Shown here in pieces: positions 2,156 to 9,334 of a stretch of DNA of 9,334 nt (position 1 is the first letter of the stretch; each line of letters starts with the position of its first letter). Position numbers and translations under genes: made by a program. The notes beneath the pieces were generated by a model. That model did no database searches and was not told where the DNA came from. It worked only from the letters and a program-made list of their open reading frames with translations. The DNA lies in contig USDE01000041.1 of NCBI GenBank assembly GCA_900553345.1, forward strand, positions 1 through 9,334, in the 5' to 3' direction. The stretch is from an uncultured Collinsella sp. (GTDB taxonomy: Bacteria; Actinomycetota; Coriobacteriia; Coriobacteriales; Coriobacteriaceae).

Positions 2156-3208
2156 CTATCCTTGTGCTTCGCCATTAGTCGCTTCGTTGATGGCGCGGTA
2201 CTCGGCACTCAGCTCGCGCGCCAGCTCTTCCTTGCTTGGAAGATACGGCAAGTATTTGGCGGCAAACACTTGGTCGTTGTCTTCGGGCAGCGTGTACTCG
2301 ACAATCGAGTCGCTTTTGTCCGCGCAGAGCACGATGCCTATAGGCGGATTGTCGCCTTCGTTCATGAGCTCGCGCGTGTAGTAGTTCACATACATTTGCA
2401 TCTGGCCCAGGTCCTGATGCGTAAGGTCATCGGTCTTAAGGTCGATGAGCACGAAGCAGCGCATCAGATAGTTGTAAAACACAAGGTCAATATAGAAATG
2501 GCGCCCATCAAAGGTGATGCGCTTTTGGCGCGCCTCGAAAGCGAAACCACGGCCAAGCTCCAGCAGGAACTTCTGAAGATGCGTGATGAGCGCCTGCTCT
2601 AGATCGCTCTCGCGGAACGCAGTATCGTCCGAGAAACCTAAAAACTCCAGTACATATGGGTCGCGGATGATATCCTCGGGGCGACGAGCCGGGGCGCTCT
2701 TTTGGATTTCCTGGGTGACGGCCTCCTTGTCCTTGCTGGCAAGCAGGCGCTCGCGGAACATGGTGTTGATCTGGCGCTCGAGCTGACGCGTGCTCCAACG
2801 AGAATCGGCGCATTCGTTCATGTACCAGGCGCGAGCATCAGGGTCGGGAATGCGCATCAACCTGCGGTAATGAGTCCAGCTCAATTCGCTACGCAGTGCG
2901 TCGCGAATTGGAAACGCAAGAAAGAACTGACGCATATTGCGAAGGTTTGCGATGCCAAAGCCTCTTCCGAAATCCGCGGTAAGCCTTCTGGAGAGGCCTG
3001 CAATCAATGCCTCTCCATATGCTGCGCGCTCCTCTCCGCCCTGCTCATCAACAATGCTCTTGCCGATCTCCCAATACGCCTCAACCATCGCAAAGTTAAC
3101 GGCGGTATAGGCCTTGTCGCGAGCGGCGTTGAGAATCGAGGAAACCTGCTTGTAAAAAACTTCTGGCACGATTGCCGATTCTCCACGGTTTACCAGTTCG
3201 CCCATCAC
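2156..3208 (-). CDS. PDDEXK nuclease-domain protein, YhcG/DUF1016 family
   Basis: This 350-residue protein shows the two-part build of YhcG-like proteins. An N-terminal DUF1016-type helical domain spans about residues 15-165, with VEAYWEIGKSIVDEQ, FGRGFGIANLRNMRQFF and LSWTHYRRLMRI. A C-terminal PDDEXK nuclease-like domain spans about 175-345, with FLGF, FLLELGRGFAFEARQKRI, FYIDLVFYN (Asp241), FVLIDLKTD (Asp256, Lys258) and LGQMQMYVNYY. The Asp and Asp-x-Lys elements of the catalytic core are intact. Known members are putative nucleases often found near restriction or mobile-element genes, and their physiological role is mostly unproved. The start is GTG at 3208 or the ATG directly after it at 3205; upstream GTGGGG or AGAGGA could serve as binding site. 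The stop lies 63 bases ahead of the ADP-ribosylglycohydrolase start, so the two may share a transcript. Confidence 0.9.
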   Translation of the reverse strand: MMGELVNRGESAIVPEVFYKQVSSILNAARDKAYTAVNFAMVEAYWEIGKSIVDEQGGEERAAYGEALIAGLSRRLTADFGRGFGIANLRNMRQFFLAFPIRDALRSELSWTHYRRLMRIPDPDARAWYMNECADSRWSTRQLERQINTMFRERLLASKDKEAVTQEIQKSAPARRPEDIIRDPYVLEFLGFSDDTAFRESDLEQALITHLQKFLLELGRGFAFEARQKRITFDGRHFYIDLVFYNYLMRCFVLIDLKTDDLTHQDLGQMQMYVNYYTRELMNEGDNPPIGIVLCADKSDSIVEYTLPEDNDQVFAAKYLPYLPSKEELARELSAEYRAINEATNGEAQG

Positions 3209-3737: not shown

Positions 3738-6209
3738 CTATTCGCTGTCGTCCCCAGCGTTTTCGCGGTCACTGGCAAGCATTGCTGCGCCGGCGACCGT
3801 CGTCACCACGGCGGCAGCGGCGAGCCCGGCGGCGATGCCAGAGCCGTCGCCCGTGTCGGCGAGTTTTCCGCCCGAGCCCTTGCCCTTGTTGCCCTTGCCA
3901 TTCTTATCAGCGCCGTCTGCGTTGGAACCCGTGCCGCTGCCGGTGCCGCCTGCACTGCCCGAGGCCGCTACGGTGAAGCTTGCGGCTCCATCGCTGGCGA
4001 GCATGTAGTTCTGTGCCGCGTCGCCCAAAAGGCTTTTCACGCGCACCCAGTACGTTCCTGCGGCAAATGTTTCGCCCTCGGCCATTGCCGTGCCCGGAGC
4101 GCCGTCCGCGTCGTGCACAAACTCGAGCTGGGCCGTGCAGGCATCGGTTTCGAGCTTGCCCTCGAGTGATGCCGCAATCTTGGCGCGCGCGTCTTCGCCG
4201 GCCTTAAGGCCTTCGAGTCCCTCAAAATGGGGCGTCAGCGCACGTGGATCGATATCGATGGGCACAGGGCCCTGCAGCCCCGTAACAGTCTCGTTGCCCA
4301 GGGCGTCGACATCCACATATTCGATGGCAAACGCATGTCCCGAGGCTGCTACGTTGAGTACGTTGCTGCTATCGACGAGGCGGAAATGACCCTCGCCAAC
4401 GGTCTTGCCGTCCTGGAGCGAGGCGTCGCTCAGCGAGTCGCCATATGTCATGTGCATGCGGGCTGGGAGGTAGCACGAAGCCGTCTGCTTGTGCTCCGTA
4501 TCGTAATTGCGCTGGTAGATGCTCCGGGCCAGTGCCGCATCAACAAAGTCGGATGCGATGATGCCAATGTGCTTGCGGCAGTCCGCCTTTGTGCTCTCAA
4601 CTCCGGTATTGTTTATATATGAGCTCTTGTACAGGTGCTCGTTGACCACTCGCGCTGCGGTAAAAGGGTTGTTTTGCGTGCAGCTAGTGTAGTTGATAAA
4701 CCAGCAGCGCTCCGTTGCCTGCACCGTTGTCCCGTCCGCGGCAGTGATATCTACGGTGCTGCGCTCGAACTCGGACGCTGCCTTCAGGGCCATATCGACC
4801 CAGTCGATCTTACTGGATCCCGTGCAGTTGTAATGGTCTTGGGCATATACCGCTGTGCTATAGGGCTCTTTGTCGCCCGTATTGCCCGCAGCCTCAAAGC
4901 CTTGCTCGTATTTCACGAGGCACATGGACTTTCCGGAATGCGCCTTGATCTTGTCATCCCATTCGGTGAGGTCGAGGCCCCACGTGTGGCCGTCTACGCT
5001 GTCGCCGGCGAGTTTAAATCGACGCAGCAGGACGATCTTTCCGCGCACCTCGTTCAGTGTGGGGACATGGCTCGACGTATAGAACAGATCGGAGTTATTG
5101 TCCATAACATTGGCGAAAGCCGTCGTAATGCTTTCGTCGGTAGCTTCGTCGTTGCCTCGTGACACCAGCATGATGAGCGCTTCTGACGGGTTTTCGTTCA
5201 AAAATGTTTTGAAGTAACCGATGACATCGGAGAGATGTATAAAGCCCCCGTCTTTTTTGAGCAAGTAGCATATTCCATGGTCGATGCCGGGGTCGCCTTT
5301 ATCGTTGTTCTTTCCAAGTCGGATATCAAAATAGCGAATGCCTTCGAGCAACTGCGTGGGGATGTAATCCTGCTGGCACTTTGCAAGCGAGGTTTGGGGC
5401 TCGGTGTCGTTGTCGACGCTGCAGGTGCTTGAATCATGCGTGCCCGGGATGCTCAGCTCGTCGAGGTATTTGTTGCCGTCGACGTATTTCATCCAGCATG
5501 GTCCGTCGACGTAGCTGCTATACGTGGTCCAGTCGATGCTGCTAACTGTGGCATTGGTCTTGTCCATGCTGTAGCCGACAAGCTCGAGTTCCCACGGAAT
5601 GCTCTTACTCTTATGGCAGATCTTATTGTTGTCCTGGTCTTTGCCGTCCTTTTCTATGGCCAGGTACTTAATGTCTTTTTTCTCGGTTTCTTTCTCGACC
5701 GTGCGGTCTCGGATGATATAGGTACCGTTTGATTGACGCTTGAACGCAAAAGAGCGACTGGCCTTGCCGTCATGCTCGCCACTCCATACGTGGATGACCT
5801 TTCCATCTTTGTCCGAGTCGCCATCGACCGACCAAATGCTGTAGCCCGTCTTCTTGTGCTCTTCGAAATTGAGCAAGGTGCGAATAGCATACCAGTTTGT
5901 ATCGTCATTCTTGGTCGTTACGTTCTCAAGGATGAGCTTGCTGGACGTGCCGTCATTAAACAGGTGGCAGACGTTGCCGATGACGTTGCCGTCTTCGTTG
6001 ACGCTCGCGGTGCGAAAATAGCCCGCGGGGCGAAGGCGAATGACGAACTTGTCGAGGGTGGCCGCCGATGTGGGCGTGTCTTCTGCAAATGCCGCGCGCA
6101 GGGGAATGCCCGGCGCTGCGGTTTCGGGCAGGCTTGCAAGTGGTGACAACGCCGCAAGCCCTAGGCCCAGCGTAAACGCTCGACGGCTGATGGCGTGGTG
6201 TTCGGTCAT
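3738..6209 (-). CDS. Tat-exported, wall-anchored phosphatidylinositol-specific phospholipase C-domain protein
   Basis: The enzyme family cleaves the phosphodiester bond of phosphatidylinositol, and in some members of GPI anchors. The 823 residues read as a modular surface protein. A twin-arginine signal (SRRAFTLG, residues 8-15, then a hydrophobic stretch to about 30) comes first. Residues about 50-215 look like a ricin-type beta-trefoil (VIHVWSGEHDGK, FAFKRQSNGTYIIRD). The PI-PLC X domain spans about 235-560, with SIPGTHDS (His258), YFDIRLG (Asp295, Arg297), DHGICY (His311) and HIGIIASDFVD (Asp554). The two catalytic His and the Arg are present. A beta-rich region follows (about 605-748), then a Gly/Ser/Lys spacer. 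The end is LADTG (783-787), a hydrophobic helix and a short charged tail, that is, a variant sortase signal. The ATG at 6209 has GGAGG four bases upstream. It is alone in its transcript, with a terminator just past the stop. The true lipid substrate is not shown by the sequence. Confidence 0.88.
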   Translation of the reverse strand: MTEHHAISRRAFTLGLGLAALSPLASLPETAAPGIPLRAAFAEDTPTSAATLDKFVIRLRPAGYFRTASVNEDGNVIGNVCHLFNDGTSSKLILENVTTKNDDTNWYAIRTLLNFEEHKKTGYSIWSVDGDSDKDGKVIHVWSGEHDGKASRSFAFKRQSNGTYIIRDRTVEKETEKKDIKYLAIEKDGKDQDNNKICHKSKSIPWELELVGYSMDKTNATVSSIDWTTYSSYVDGPCWMKYVDGNKYLDELSIPGTHDSSTCSVDNDTEPQTSLAKCQQDYIPTQLLEGIRYFDIRLGKNNDKGDPGIDHGICYLLKKDGGFIHLSDVIGYFKTFLNENPSEALIMLVSRGNDEATDESITTAFANVMDNNSDLFYTSSHVPTLNEVRGKIVLLRRFKLAGDSVDGHTWGLDLTEWDDKIKAHSGKSMCLVKYEQGFEAAGNTGDKEPYSTAVYAQDHYNCTGSSKIDWVDMALKAASEFERSTVDITAADGTTVQATERCWFINYTSCTQNNPFTAARVVNEHLYKSSYINNTGVESTKADCRKHIGIIASDFVDAALARSIYQRNYDTEHKQTASCYLPARMHMTYGDSLSDASLQDGKTVGEGHFRLVDSSNVLNVAASGHAFAIEYVDVDALGNETVTGLQGPVPIDIDPRALTPHFEGLEGLKAGEDARAKIAASLEGKLETDACTAQLEFVHDADGAPGTAMAEGETFAAGTYWVRVKSLLGDAAQNYMLASDGAASFTVAASGSAGGTGSGTGSNADGADKNGKGNKGKGSGGKLADTGDGSGIAAGLAAAAVVTTVAGAAMLASDRENAGDDSE

Positions 6210-6514: not shown

Positions 6515-7108
6515 TTAGCGCTTGATCTCGATATCGTCGAGCTTGACGTCCATGGCCTCGGTCTTTGCCTCGGCGATGTCATCGGCAAATTCCAGAGACT
6601 TCATCATGGTTTCGACGGCATCCTTGTGCTCCTCGACATTGTCGATGCGCACGTAGACGCTGCCGCCGCCTGCTTCGGTGAAGTACTCAGTCGTCACGCC
6701 GCCCGAGTGTGTATAGGAAGCGTTGCGCCAAGTCTTGCCGTTGTACTTGACGGGGTCATTCTCGGTCCACTCAAAGCTGGCATTCCACTTTGCCTCGTAG
6801 TCGAACAGCTCGTCGGCGTTCTTGTCAGGATCGAAGACGGGGATGAAGCGGTCGCTGGCGTGCTCGCTCTCGGTGAACTTAAACTGGGCCCTGTCGGCCG
6901 TGTCGCCGGCAACATCGGTGATCTCAACGCCCTCGGGGACCTCGACCTTAAACCAAATGAAGTCGGTCCTCATATCCACGGCTGGCTTTTCTGCTCCGCC
7001 GCCACCGCCACTGCCGGTAGCGCCGCCGCTTCCGCCACAGCCCACCAGGGCAACCGCGGCAAAGAGACTGATGCAGAGGGTGAGAATCGCAAAGGCCTTC
7101 TTTTTCAT
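6515..7108 (-). CDS. Putative lipoprotein A (paralog of lipoprotein B)
   Basis: The 197-residue protein begins MKKKAFAILTLC and has a hydrophobic core and the lipobox LVGC with the lipidated Cys at residue 24. A Gly-rich spacer (25-38) and a compact acidic domain follow. It should therefore be anchored to the outer face of the membrane. The mature domain starts at TDFIWFKVEVPEGV, contains DRFIPVF, an FEWTENDPVKYNGKTW segment and a C-terminal helix-like EHKDAVETMMKSLEFADDIAEAKTEA, and ends KLDDIEIKR. These blocks occur in the same order in the neighbouring 199-residue protein, so the two arose by tandem duplication. The domain resembles small secreted proteins of unknown function; I assign none. 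The ATG at 7108 has AGGAGG eight bases upstream. Gene A has its own upstream element (7181-7199) and its own terminator. Confidence 0.85.
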   Translation of the reverse strand: MKKKAFAILTLCISLFAAVALVGCGGSGGATGSGGGGGAEKPAVDMRTDFIWFKVEVPEGVEITDVAGDTADRAQFKFTESEHASDRFIPVFDPDKNADELFDYEAKWNASFEWTENDPVKYNGKTWRNASYTHSGGVTTEYFTEAGGGSVYVRIDNVEEHKDAVETMMKSLEFADDIAEAKTEAMDVKLDDIEIKR

Positions 7109-7339: not shown

Positions 7340-7939
7340 TTACTTGATCTCGATGCTCGAAATCTCAACTTCGCGTGCCTCGGCAACTGCCTTCGCCATG
7401 TCATCGGGGAACTCGATGGAGTTGAGGAGCGTCTCGGCTTCTTTCTCGTGCTGATCGAAGTTCGCGATGAGAACGCAGACGCTTCCCGGTTCAACGTCGG
7501 TAAAGAGATAGGTATGGGTGCCGCGGTTGTCCTCGCACGTTCCGGTGAGCCATGTCCTGCCGTTGTACTCGACGGGGTCGCCAACTTTCCACTGGAACAT
7601 GCTGTTCTTTCGACCCTCATCGGCAAGAGCTTCTTCTGCCGTCATCTTCTCTTCCCAAACGGGGATAAAGCGGTCGACTGTGGTGTTCTCGTTCTCGGGG
7701 AAGGTGAGCTGGACCCTGTCGACGTTCTTGCCGGCGGAGTCGCTTACGCCAACGCCCTCGGGCATCTCGACCTTAAACCAGATAAAGTCAGTCTTTTCGG
7801 CAACGGGGGCCTTTTCCTTGCCTTCGCTCTTTGAGGTACTGCCGCCCACGCCCGATGCGCTCCCGCCGCAGCCGACAAGGGCAAACGCGGCAAAGAGGGC
7901 GATGCACAGGGAAAGGATCGATAGGGTCTTTTTCTTCAT
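7340..7939 (-). CDS. Putative lipoprotein B (paralog of lipoprotein A)
   Basis: I place the start at the ATG at 7939, which has AGGAGG eight bases upstream and gives 199 residues beginning MKKKTLSILSLCIALF. An in-frame ATG at 7972 would add 11 polar residues ahead of the signal and lacks a binding site. The signal peptide ends in the lipobox LVGC with Cys24, followed by a Gly/Ser/Lys linker to about residue 48. The mature domain repeats the order seen in lipoprotein A: TDFIWFKVEMPEGV, VDRFIPVW, GDPVEYNGRTW, a VLIANFDQHEKEAETLLNS helix, FPDDMAKAVAEA and a final ISSIEIK. Similarity is clear over the whole length but far from identity, so the duplication is not recent. Function is unknown; surface location is well supported. 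Confidence 0.85.
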   Translation of the reverse strand: MKKKTLSILSLCIALFAAFALVGCGGSASGVGGSTSKSEGKEKAPVAEKTDFIWFKVEMPEGVGVSDSAGKNVDRVQLTFPENENTTVDRFIPVWEEKMTAEEALADEGRKNSMFQWKVGDPVEYNGRTWLTGTCEDNRGTHTYLFTDVEPGSVCVLIANFDQHEKEAETLLNSIEFPDDMAKAVAEAREVEISSIEIK

Positions 7940-8093
7940 GGTGGTGTCCTCCTTGTCCGCCGATGACATCACGGCGCCGCATGCTGTTGGGGTACTGATT
8001 GCGCTGGCGGCGGATGTCTCTGTGTGCTGTGCGGCTTATGCCTCCGTTCATCTCTTGTGGCCGTTGCGCGGCCGTGCCCCAACGGGTTCCTTA

Positions 8094-8316: not shown

Positions 8317-8949
8317 ATGAGCCAAGAGATGATGGACAAGACCTGCCGTGGGTTTGCCGAGGCGCTGGCCGCGCGCGAGCCGGTTCCCGGCGGCGGTAGC
8401 GCGAGCGCCTTTGTGGGCGCGCTGGGCGCCTCGCTTTGCGGGATGGTCGCTCGCTACGGGGCGACCAATCCCGCGCTTAGCAATCGGGCGGACGATCTGA
8501 CGCGTGCATTTGCCCAGGCAGACGAGTTGGCGCAGGAACTAGTGGGTCTGGTTGCCGAGGATGTTCGTGCATACGGCCAGGTGTCTGCGGCATACGGCAT
8601 TCCGCGCGAGGACCCGGCTCGACCCGCGGCGATTCAGGACGCGTTGCGCGTGGCGGCCATGCCGCCGTACCGGATCATGGATGCCTGCGGGCGCGCGCTG
8701 GCGCTGCTCGAGGACATGGCCGACAAGGGTTCGCGCCAGTTGCTGTCCGACGTGGCATGCGGCGCCGTGTTCTGCCGCGCCGCCATGCAAGGCGCGAGCC
8801 TGACGCTCTTTGCCAATACCACATCTATGAAAGACCGGGCGCGCGCCGAGGAACTCGAGGCGGCGTGCGATGAACTACTAGATACGTGGCTGCCGCGCGC
8901 CGATGCACTGGCGCGCCGTGCTGCTGACGCCGCAAGGAAGAGGGGATAG
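8317..8949 (+). CDS. fchA: Methenyltetrahydrofolate cyclohydrolase (formiminotransferase-cyclodeaminase family)
   Basis: The enzyme hydrolyses 5,10-methenyl-tetrahydrofolate to 10-formyl-tetrahydrofolate; relatives of the same fold act as formimino-tetrahydrofolate cyclodeaminase. The 210 residues are all-helical in character, with the family signature EPVPGGGSASAFVGALGASL (residues 21-40) near the N-terminus, the PALSNRADDL region, and a central block around MPPYRIMDACGRALALLEDMA. The length equals that of stand-alone FchA proteins. The ATG at 8317 follows GAAGGTG by seven bases, a moderate binding site. The stop is two bases before the folD ATG, so the genes are co-transcribed and probably translationally coupled. 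Pairing with folD favours the cyclohydrolase role over histidine degradation; no histidine-utilisation gene is visible. The neighbouring FolD lacks cyclohydrolase residues, which makes this role stronger. Confidence 0.88.
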   Translation: MSQEMMDKTCRGFAEALAAREPVPGGGSASAFVGALGASLCGMVARYGATNPALSNRADDLTRAFAQADELAQELVGLVAEDVRAYGQVSAAYGIPREDPARPAAIQDALRVAAMPPYRIMDACGRALALLEDMADKGSRQLLSDVACGAVFCRAAMQGASLTLFANTTSMKDRARAEELEAACDELLDTWLPRADALARRAADAARKRG

Positions 8950-8951
8950 CC

Positions 8952-9334
8952 ATGGCCGAACTGCTCAAGGGTGCTCCCGTTGCCCGCGCTTTGACCGAGG
9001 AACTTGCCGCTCGTTGCGCCGCCCTGCGCGAACAGGGCATCGTGCCGACACTGGCCATCGTTCGTGTGGGCGAGCGCGAGGACGACCTGTCCTACGAGCG
9101 CGGCGCCCTCAAGCGCTGCGAGAAGATTGGCATTGAGGCTCGCCGCGTTTTGCTTCCCGCCGATGTTTCACAGGACGAGCTGTTGGCGGCTATTAAGGAC
9201 ATCGATGCCGACCCCGCTGTTCACGGCTGCCTGATGTTTCGTCCGTTGCCCGCTGGGCTTGACGAGGATGCAGTTGCCGCGGCACTCGAGCCCGCCAAGG
9301 ATGTTGACTCCATGACGCCGGCCTCGCTGCTCAC
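8952..9334 (+). CDS. folD: Methylenetetrahydrofolate dehydrogenase FolD, N-terminal part (runs off window), probably dehydrogenase only
   Basis: FolD oxidises 5,10-methylene-tetrahydrofolate to the methenyl form with NAD(P) and usually also hydrolyses that product. Here 127 residues of the catalytic domain are visible and the Rossmann domain lies beyond the edge. The frame shows LAIVRVGEREDDLSYERGALKRCEKIGI (residues about 34-61, read in pieces: VRVG, LSY, LKRCEKIGI), HGCLMFRPLP (91-100) and AKDVDS (115-120). In usual bifunctional enzymes the first motif has Tyr-x-x-x-Lys and the second Gln-Leu-Pro-Leu-Pro. Here the Lys is Ala52 and the Gln is Phe96, while Tyr48 and the Asp of KDVD are kept. 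These two are cyclohydrolase residues, so this copy is predicted to keep only the dehydrogenase step. The ATG at 8952 overlaps the end of the fchA region, two bases after its stop, with GAGGGG upstream. Confidence 0.9.
   Translation, partial: MAELLKGAPVARALTEELAARCAALREQGIVPTLAIVRVGEREDDLSYERGALKRCEKIGIEARRVLLPADVSQDELLAAIKDIDADPAVHGCLMFRPLPAGLDEDAVAAALEPAKDVDSMTPASLL

Follow-up and report, generated by a model that had tools for sequence, protein, structure and literature searches.

The window analysed here, a stretch of 9,334 nucleotides from an uncultured Collinsella sp. (contig USDE01000041.1), ends in two adjacent forward-strand genes. The fchA open reading frame (8317..8949) encodes a 210-residue predicted methenyl-tetrahydrofolate (methenyl-THF) cyclohydrolase of the FTCD_C family and is followed by the first 127 codons of folD (8952..9332), an open reading frame still open at the window end that encodes a predicted dehydrogenase devoid of cyclohydrolase activity. 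The fchA stop codon TAG (8947-8949) and the folD ATG (8952) are separated by two bases, in agreement with the 2-bp gap reported in a first-pass annotation of this DNA. A purine-rich stretch read within the 3' end of fchA (8934..8945, forward strand) is the likely ribosome-binding site of folD, and the two genes are presumably co-translated.

The remainder of the window contains a Collinsella-1 RNA (RF01700) on the forward strand at 589-785, which scores 215 bits (gathering score, 35), and several genes on the reverse strand. Pfam matches identify an ADP-ribosylglycohydrolase family protein (1304-2092), a YhcG/DUF1016 nuclease-like protein (2156-3208) and an 823-residue protein with a PI-PLC-X domain (3738-6209). 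The N terminus of the last is signal-like and its C terminus hydrophobic, and it is probably secreted or surface-bound. Two further reverse-strand open reading frames (6515-7108 and 7340-7972) encode small proteins that resemble each other, begin like lipoproteins (LVGCGG) and match no Pfam or NCBIfam family; they are likely a duplicated lipoprotein.

The FolD fragment matches the Pfam family PF00763 (THF_DHG_CYH; E = 1.8e-33, 115.7 bits against a curated cut-off of 32.8) and is 89 to 95% identical to its counterparts at 20 Collinsella loci, 11 of which are named C. aerofaciens. A full-length Collinsella relative, L001, comprises 284 residues and both FolD domains, with the NAD(P) domain (PF02882) scoring 184.6 bits; the next gene downstream of folD at this locus encodes a family C69 peptidase. 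Approximately 11 kb separate fhs from fchA on one contig of the Collinsella genome G001. The window FchA matches PF04961 (FTCD_C; E = 9.3e-50, 169.3 bits against a curated cut-off of 24.5), and its best match among solved structures is the methenyltetrahydrofolate cyclohydrolase 7vg4 (E = 1.3e-25). As it scores 133.3 bits against the NCBI FchA equivalog NF045657, the cut-off of which is 275, we regard the FchA assignment as a likely function rather than a curated one.

Five single-chain FchA–FolD proteins (P0003, P0004, P0010, P0011 and P0015) were found in Collinsella-like metagenome clusters, each representing one to five member sequences. An altered fchA end is read through in P0003, P0004 and P0015 but not in P0010 and P0011. 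Given these altered ends and the small number of members, frameshifts or sequencing errors may account for the fusions, and we do not accept fusion as the normal state of the pair. Such proteins in some metagenomes would point to a possible physical pairing of FchA and FolD in Collinsella.

The first-pass annotation had assigned Ala52 (codon GCC, 9105..9107) to the site of the cyclohydrolase Lys and Phe96 (codon TTT, 9237..9239) to that of the Gln which positions it, in an alignment described as unforced. With L001 as the query, these residues align with Lys and Gln in each of five solved FolDs compared, out of 26 matches, and the region spanning both sites is free of gaps in each of them. The assignment is corroborated by a 197-row FolD alignment comprising 112 Lys-type rows, 81 rows with hydrophobic residues at the two sites and four Gln/Gln rows: Lys, Gln and a Ser at position 45 are each present in 112/112 Lys-type rows. 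The annotated spacing of eight residues from VG to Tyr, in turn, has to be corrected to seven.

Neither Lys nor Gln occurs at the two sites in any of 80 related loci, so the Ala52/Phe96 pair is not a product of chance. Site 52 is occupied by Ala in 76 of these loci, by Ile in three and by Val in one, and site 96 by Phe in 77, Leu in two and Met in one. The 81 hydrophobic-group rows carry Ala (59), Ile (12), Leu (6) or Val (4) at the Lys site and Phe (51), Leu (22) or Met (8) at the Gln site. Nearby positions differ as well. The Ser site is an Asp in 72/81 hydrophobic-group rows, as in the window FolD (Asp45, codon 9084..9086), and Glu49 is present in 66/81. The residue following the Gln site is typically Arg in this group (71/81; Arg97 in the window, codon 9240..9242), as opposed to Leu (71) or Met (29) in the 112 Lys-type rows, and position 233, an Arg in 106/112 Lys-type rows, is mostly Trp, Val or Phe. 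Among the 120 matches listed for the Collinsella FolD, 117 have Ala/Phe, two Thr/Phe and one Ala/Ser. According to the first-pass annotation, the yeast monofunctional dehydrogenase Mtd1 carries Thr and Tyr there.

Tyr48, Pro98 and Asp117 are present in 81/81 hydrophobic-group rows and Asp119 in 80/81, and all four are conserved in the Lys-type group, as are the NAD(P)-domain residues Arg166, Ser167, Gly171 and Pro173 in both groups. The window fragment lacks the catalytic Lys of the YxxxK motif and the Gln by which a bifunctional FolD is recognized and retains the substrate-site Tyr and Asp, its NAD(P) domain being judged from L001. A dead FolD is ruled out by the conservation of the dehydrogenase residues and by the presence of a single FolD copy in 48 of the 49 genomes holding related loci (G006 has two).

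In the available part of a study of the cyclohydrolase reaction, the Lys serves as general acid/base and the Gln positions it (PMC3338484). The accessible portion of a second paper also involves the Lys/Gln pair in the dehydrogenase step (PMC3368264), and a simulation paper on MTHFD2, likewise available in part, leaves a role of the Lys open without excluding it (PMC9173628). In the literature searched, which consisted partly of excerpts and left most subscription papers outside, we found no statement of the residue signature together with fchA co-occurrence, nor of the extension of this rule to Actinomycetota.

To relate the residue signature to gene content, we used two evenly drawn genome samples, one from the class of G001, taken to be Coriobacteriia (119 genomes, FolD in 117), and one from the class of G018, taken to be Clostridia (148 genomes, FolD in 138); the group names follow from the Collinsella record L001 and the Sporobacter record L039. 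All 117 FolD-containing Coriobacteriia genomes were residue-typed, yielding 44 with a non-Lys FolD and 73 with Lys/Gln; the Clostridia were typed from their folD loci in 137 genomes and from locus L039 for G018. An FchA-family gene is present in 44/44 non-Lys Coriobacteriia (detected by BLASTP at the folD locus in 42, in L001 for G001 and elsewhere in the genome for G145) and in 0/73 Lys-type ones. Among the Clostridia, FTCD_C exceeds the cut-off in 50 of the 51 genomes with a non-Lys FolD only and in two of the 86 with a Lys-type FolD only (G222 and G234); in a third Lys-type genome, G296, the match stays under this threshold. FTCD_C is also found above the cut-off in two of the ten Clostridia without FolD (G248 and G262). 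The FolD score of G284, 32.1 bits, falls marginally short of the cut-off of 32.8. G195 was counted as non-Lys on the basis of a Phe at the Gln site, its Lys codon falling in a sequence gap. The four genomes with a Gln/Gln FolD (G312, G263, G207 and G235) all contain FTCD_C. G171 has both kinds of FolD and FTCD_C above the cut-off: an Ile/Phe FolD lies 2 bp behind fchA at one of its loci (L312 and L329), and the Lys/Gln FolD is encoded on another contig.

These data largely confirm the expectation, raised with the first-pass annotation, that non-Lys FolDs are always accompanied by fchA, and the counterexamples it called for are few. G200, a non-Lys Clostridia genome, has no FTCD_C match in the genome, no fchA beside folD and no Fhs. 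Among the 80 related loci, an FchA relative lies near folD in 63 and not in 17, within the stretch fetched, and genome searches covering 50 of these loci returned an FTCD_C match in 48 of 49 genomes; of the 16 genomes searched for the 17 loci with no nearby relative, 15 gave a match. The exception is G008, which has a non-Lys FolD and no FTCD_C match in the genome search. G042 comes close to being another, with a match of 34 bits only. Its contig ends 1.3 kb behind folD, and at L054, another Oscillospiraceae record, the FchA relative lies 2.6 kb behind folD, so the corresponding gene of G042 may be situated past the end of its contig.

The non-Lys FolDs form one clade of 85 rows (SH-aLRT 99) in a tree of 197 rows, thinned of near-duplicates from 219 and computed with the two trait columns removed; L164 (short), L301 (untyped) and 39 Lys-type loci added later are not part of it. 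When the tree is rooted on a Lys-type row, the four Gln/Gln rows branch first, followed by the 81 hydrophobic rows (support 91). Coriobacteriia and Clostridia rows are intermixed inside the clade, and G198, G258 and G284 have long branches. We interpret the single clade as one old event, maintained since then and spread through descent or transfer. This one clade and an independent-pairs test, which gives one pair, rule out independent Lys losses. A separate origin of the Gln/Gln group is ruled out as well, as that group falls inside the non-Lys clade (support 99) beside the hydrophobic group. The co-occurrence is accordingly strong as a prediction rule and weak when taken as a number of independent trials. 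This rooting suggests that replacement of Lys by Gln was the first step of the change.

The division of labour between FolD and FchA is real at the level of sequences and genome content, and it is likely functional as proposed. We consider it very probable that the Collinsella FolD is a dehydrogenase only and that FchA takes the cyclohydrolase step. The split of a bifunctional enzyme put forward in the first-pass annotation is thereby supported by the residues and by genome co-occurrence, the loss of cyclohydrolase activity from FolD itself being what we infer from them. Lacking Lys and Gln, FolD would be restricted to the NAD(P)-dependent dehydrogenation of methylene-THF, and the step between methenyl-THF and 10-formyl-THF would likely fall to FchA. 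Together with Fhs, the two enzymes would connect formate and 10-formyl-THF with methylene-THF. The change in FolD may have become permanent because FchA was present. The stricter proposal that the loss was tolerated only for this reason fits the co-occurrence and draws on one old event instead of repeated losses.

Two other explanations have to be weighed against this division of labour. FolD could still be bifunctional, with Asp45, Glu49 and Arg97 replacing Lys and Gln in cyclohydrolysis and FchA merely adding capacity. The group does conserve these three residues (72/81, 66/81 and 71/81, respectively), and in the part of the MTHFD2 simulation paper that is available the base need be neither Lys nor Gln (PMC9173628). 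However, FchA as mere added capacity does not agree with the pooled samples, in which an FchA-family gene is present in 94/95 non-Lys genomes and absent from 157/159 Lys-type ones, nor with the Blautia producta enzyme, which is termed monofunctional in the accessible text (PMC6443876). We therefore regard a bifunctional Collinsella FolD as improbable.

A still slimmer prospect, in our estimation, is that the FchA-family gene encodes a formimino-THF cyclodeaminase feeding methenyl-THF to a dehydrogenase-only FolD, with no cyclohydrolase present and 10-formyl-THF supplied by Fhs only. PF04961 spans both activities, formimino-THF cyclodeaminases being among its members, and the window FchA scores below the FchA equivalog cut-off (133 versus 275 bits). 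Against this stands its best solved match, the cyclohydrolase 7vg4. We searched for the formiminotransferase (PF02971) and for Fhs in 80 genomes, namely 52 non-Lys Clostridia and 28 of the 44 non-Lys Coriobacteriia. Fhs is nearly universal (79/80, with G236 carrying a fragment where its contig ends), which fits a supply of 10-formyl-THF by Fhs. The formiminotransferase is absent from 28/28 Coriobacteriia, Collinsella G001 included, which makes a cyclodeaminase instead of a cyclohydrolase unlikely there. The Clostridia are less clear-cut: the formiminotransferase occurs in 18/52 and directly adjoins the sole FTCD_C gene in five (G208, G223, G250, G251 and G278), so the FchA-family gene in such genomes may serve formimino-folate breakdown. 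In G208, G223, G250 and G278, the non-Lys folD lies directly behind fhs and the sole FTCD_C gene beside the formiminotransferase; one enzyme may serve both roles in these four genomes.

Extended beyond Collinsella, the dehydrogenase-only reading becomes tentative. An ancient clade across Actinomycetota and Bacillota might be dehydrogenase-only in its entirety and tied to FchA, having first exchanged Lys for Gln while retaining the original Gln and lost the latter afterwards, with a physical FchA/FolD pair in Collinsella and many 'bifunctional' names in error; we hold this combination to be possible and somewhat doubtful. The two-residue signature would allow bacterial FolDs that depend on FchA to be predicted from sequence. 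It would also put right the 'bifunctional' label of such proteins in the records covered here and improve folate models for common gut bacteria. In such species FchA would act as a step of its own, one that may be essential, and inhibitors designed for the Lys/Gln pocket of FolD may have a different effect on these bacteria.

Monofunctional dehydrogenases are known from Blautia producta and, accompanied by FchA, reportedly from Clostridium perfringens, so that the split is of a kind already known. A 2016 study by Aluri et al. in Microbiology (162:145) is said to have found that the C. perfringens FolD is a dehydrogenase only, that FchA supplies the cyclohydrolase and that both are needed to replace the Escherichia coli FolD. 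The C. perfringens FolD, FchA and Fhs would thus show the same division of labour as we propose for Collinsella. The FolDs of likely Clostridium genomes in our sample are Gln/Gln, whereas that of Collinsella is Ala/Phe, and the C. perfringens FolD therefore probably belongs to the sister group. All 120 matches listed for one Gln/Gln FolD are themselves Gln/Gln; they belong to Clostridium wherever the name is complete, and most are named 'bifunctional'.

The methylene-THF dehydrogenase of Peptostreptococcus productus (now Blautia producta), which belongs to a different phylum from Collinsella, is monofunctional and NADP-dependent according to the available part of one paper (PMC6443876). In the genus of G046 (Candidatus Blautia), 47 of 60 genomes match the window FolD, two of them weakly. 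The best 30 of these 47 are all Ala/Phe, like Collinsella, and each has an FchA relative close to folD in the same orientation. The other 13 genomes gave no FolD match to the window fragment, for which either incompleteness or true loss may account. The NADP-dependent enzyme of P. productus was reportedly described by Wohlfarth et al. in 1991.

The acetogens Acetobacterium woodii and Tepidanaerobacter acetatoxydans carry fchA and folD as neighbours in fhs–fchA–folD clusters, as described in the accessible parts of two reports (PMC10472528, PMC3584212), and resemble Collinsella in this respect. The acetogen clusters are part of the Wood–Ljungdahl pathway, whereas in Collinsella G001 fhs stands apart from the pair by the distance given above. 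The bifunctional FolDs and the dehydrogenase–cyclohydrolase domain of MTHFD1 belong to the same fold family as the Collinsella FolD by sequence (Pfam and the 26 solved matches) and share its substrate-site Tyr and Asp, but the cyclohydrolase Lys, its Gln and the nearby Ser are all replaced in the Collinsella protein.
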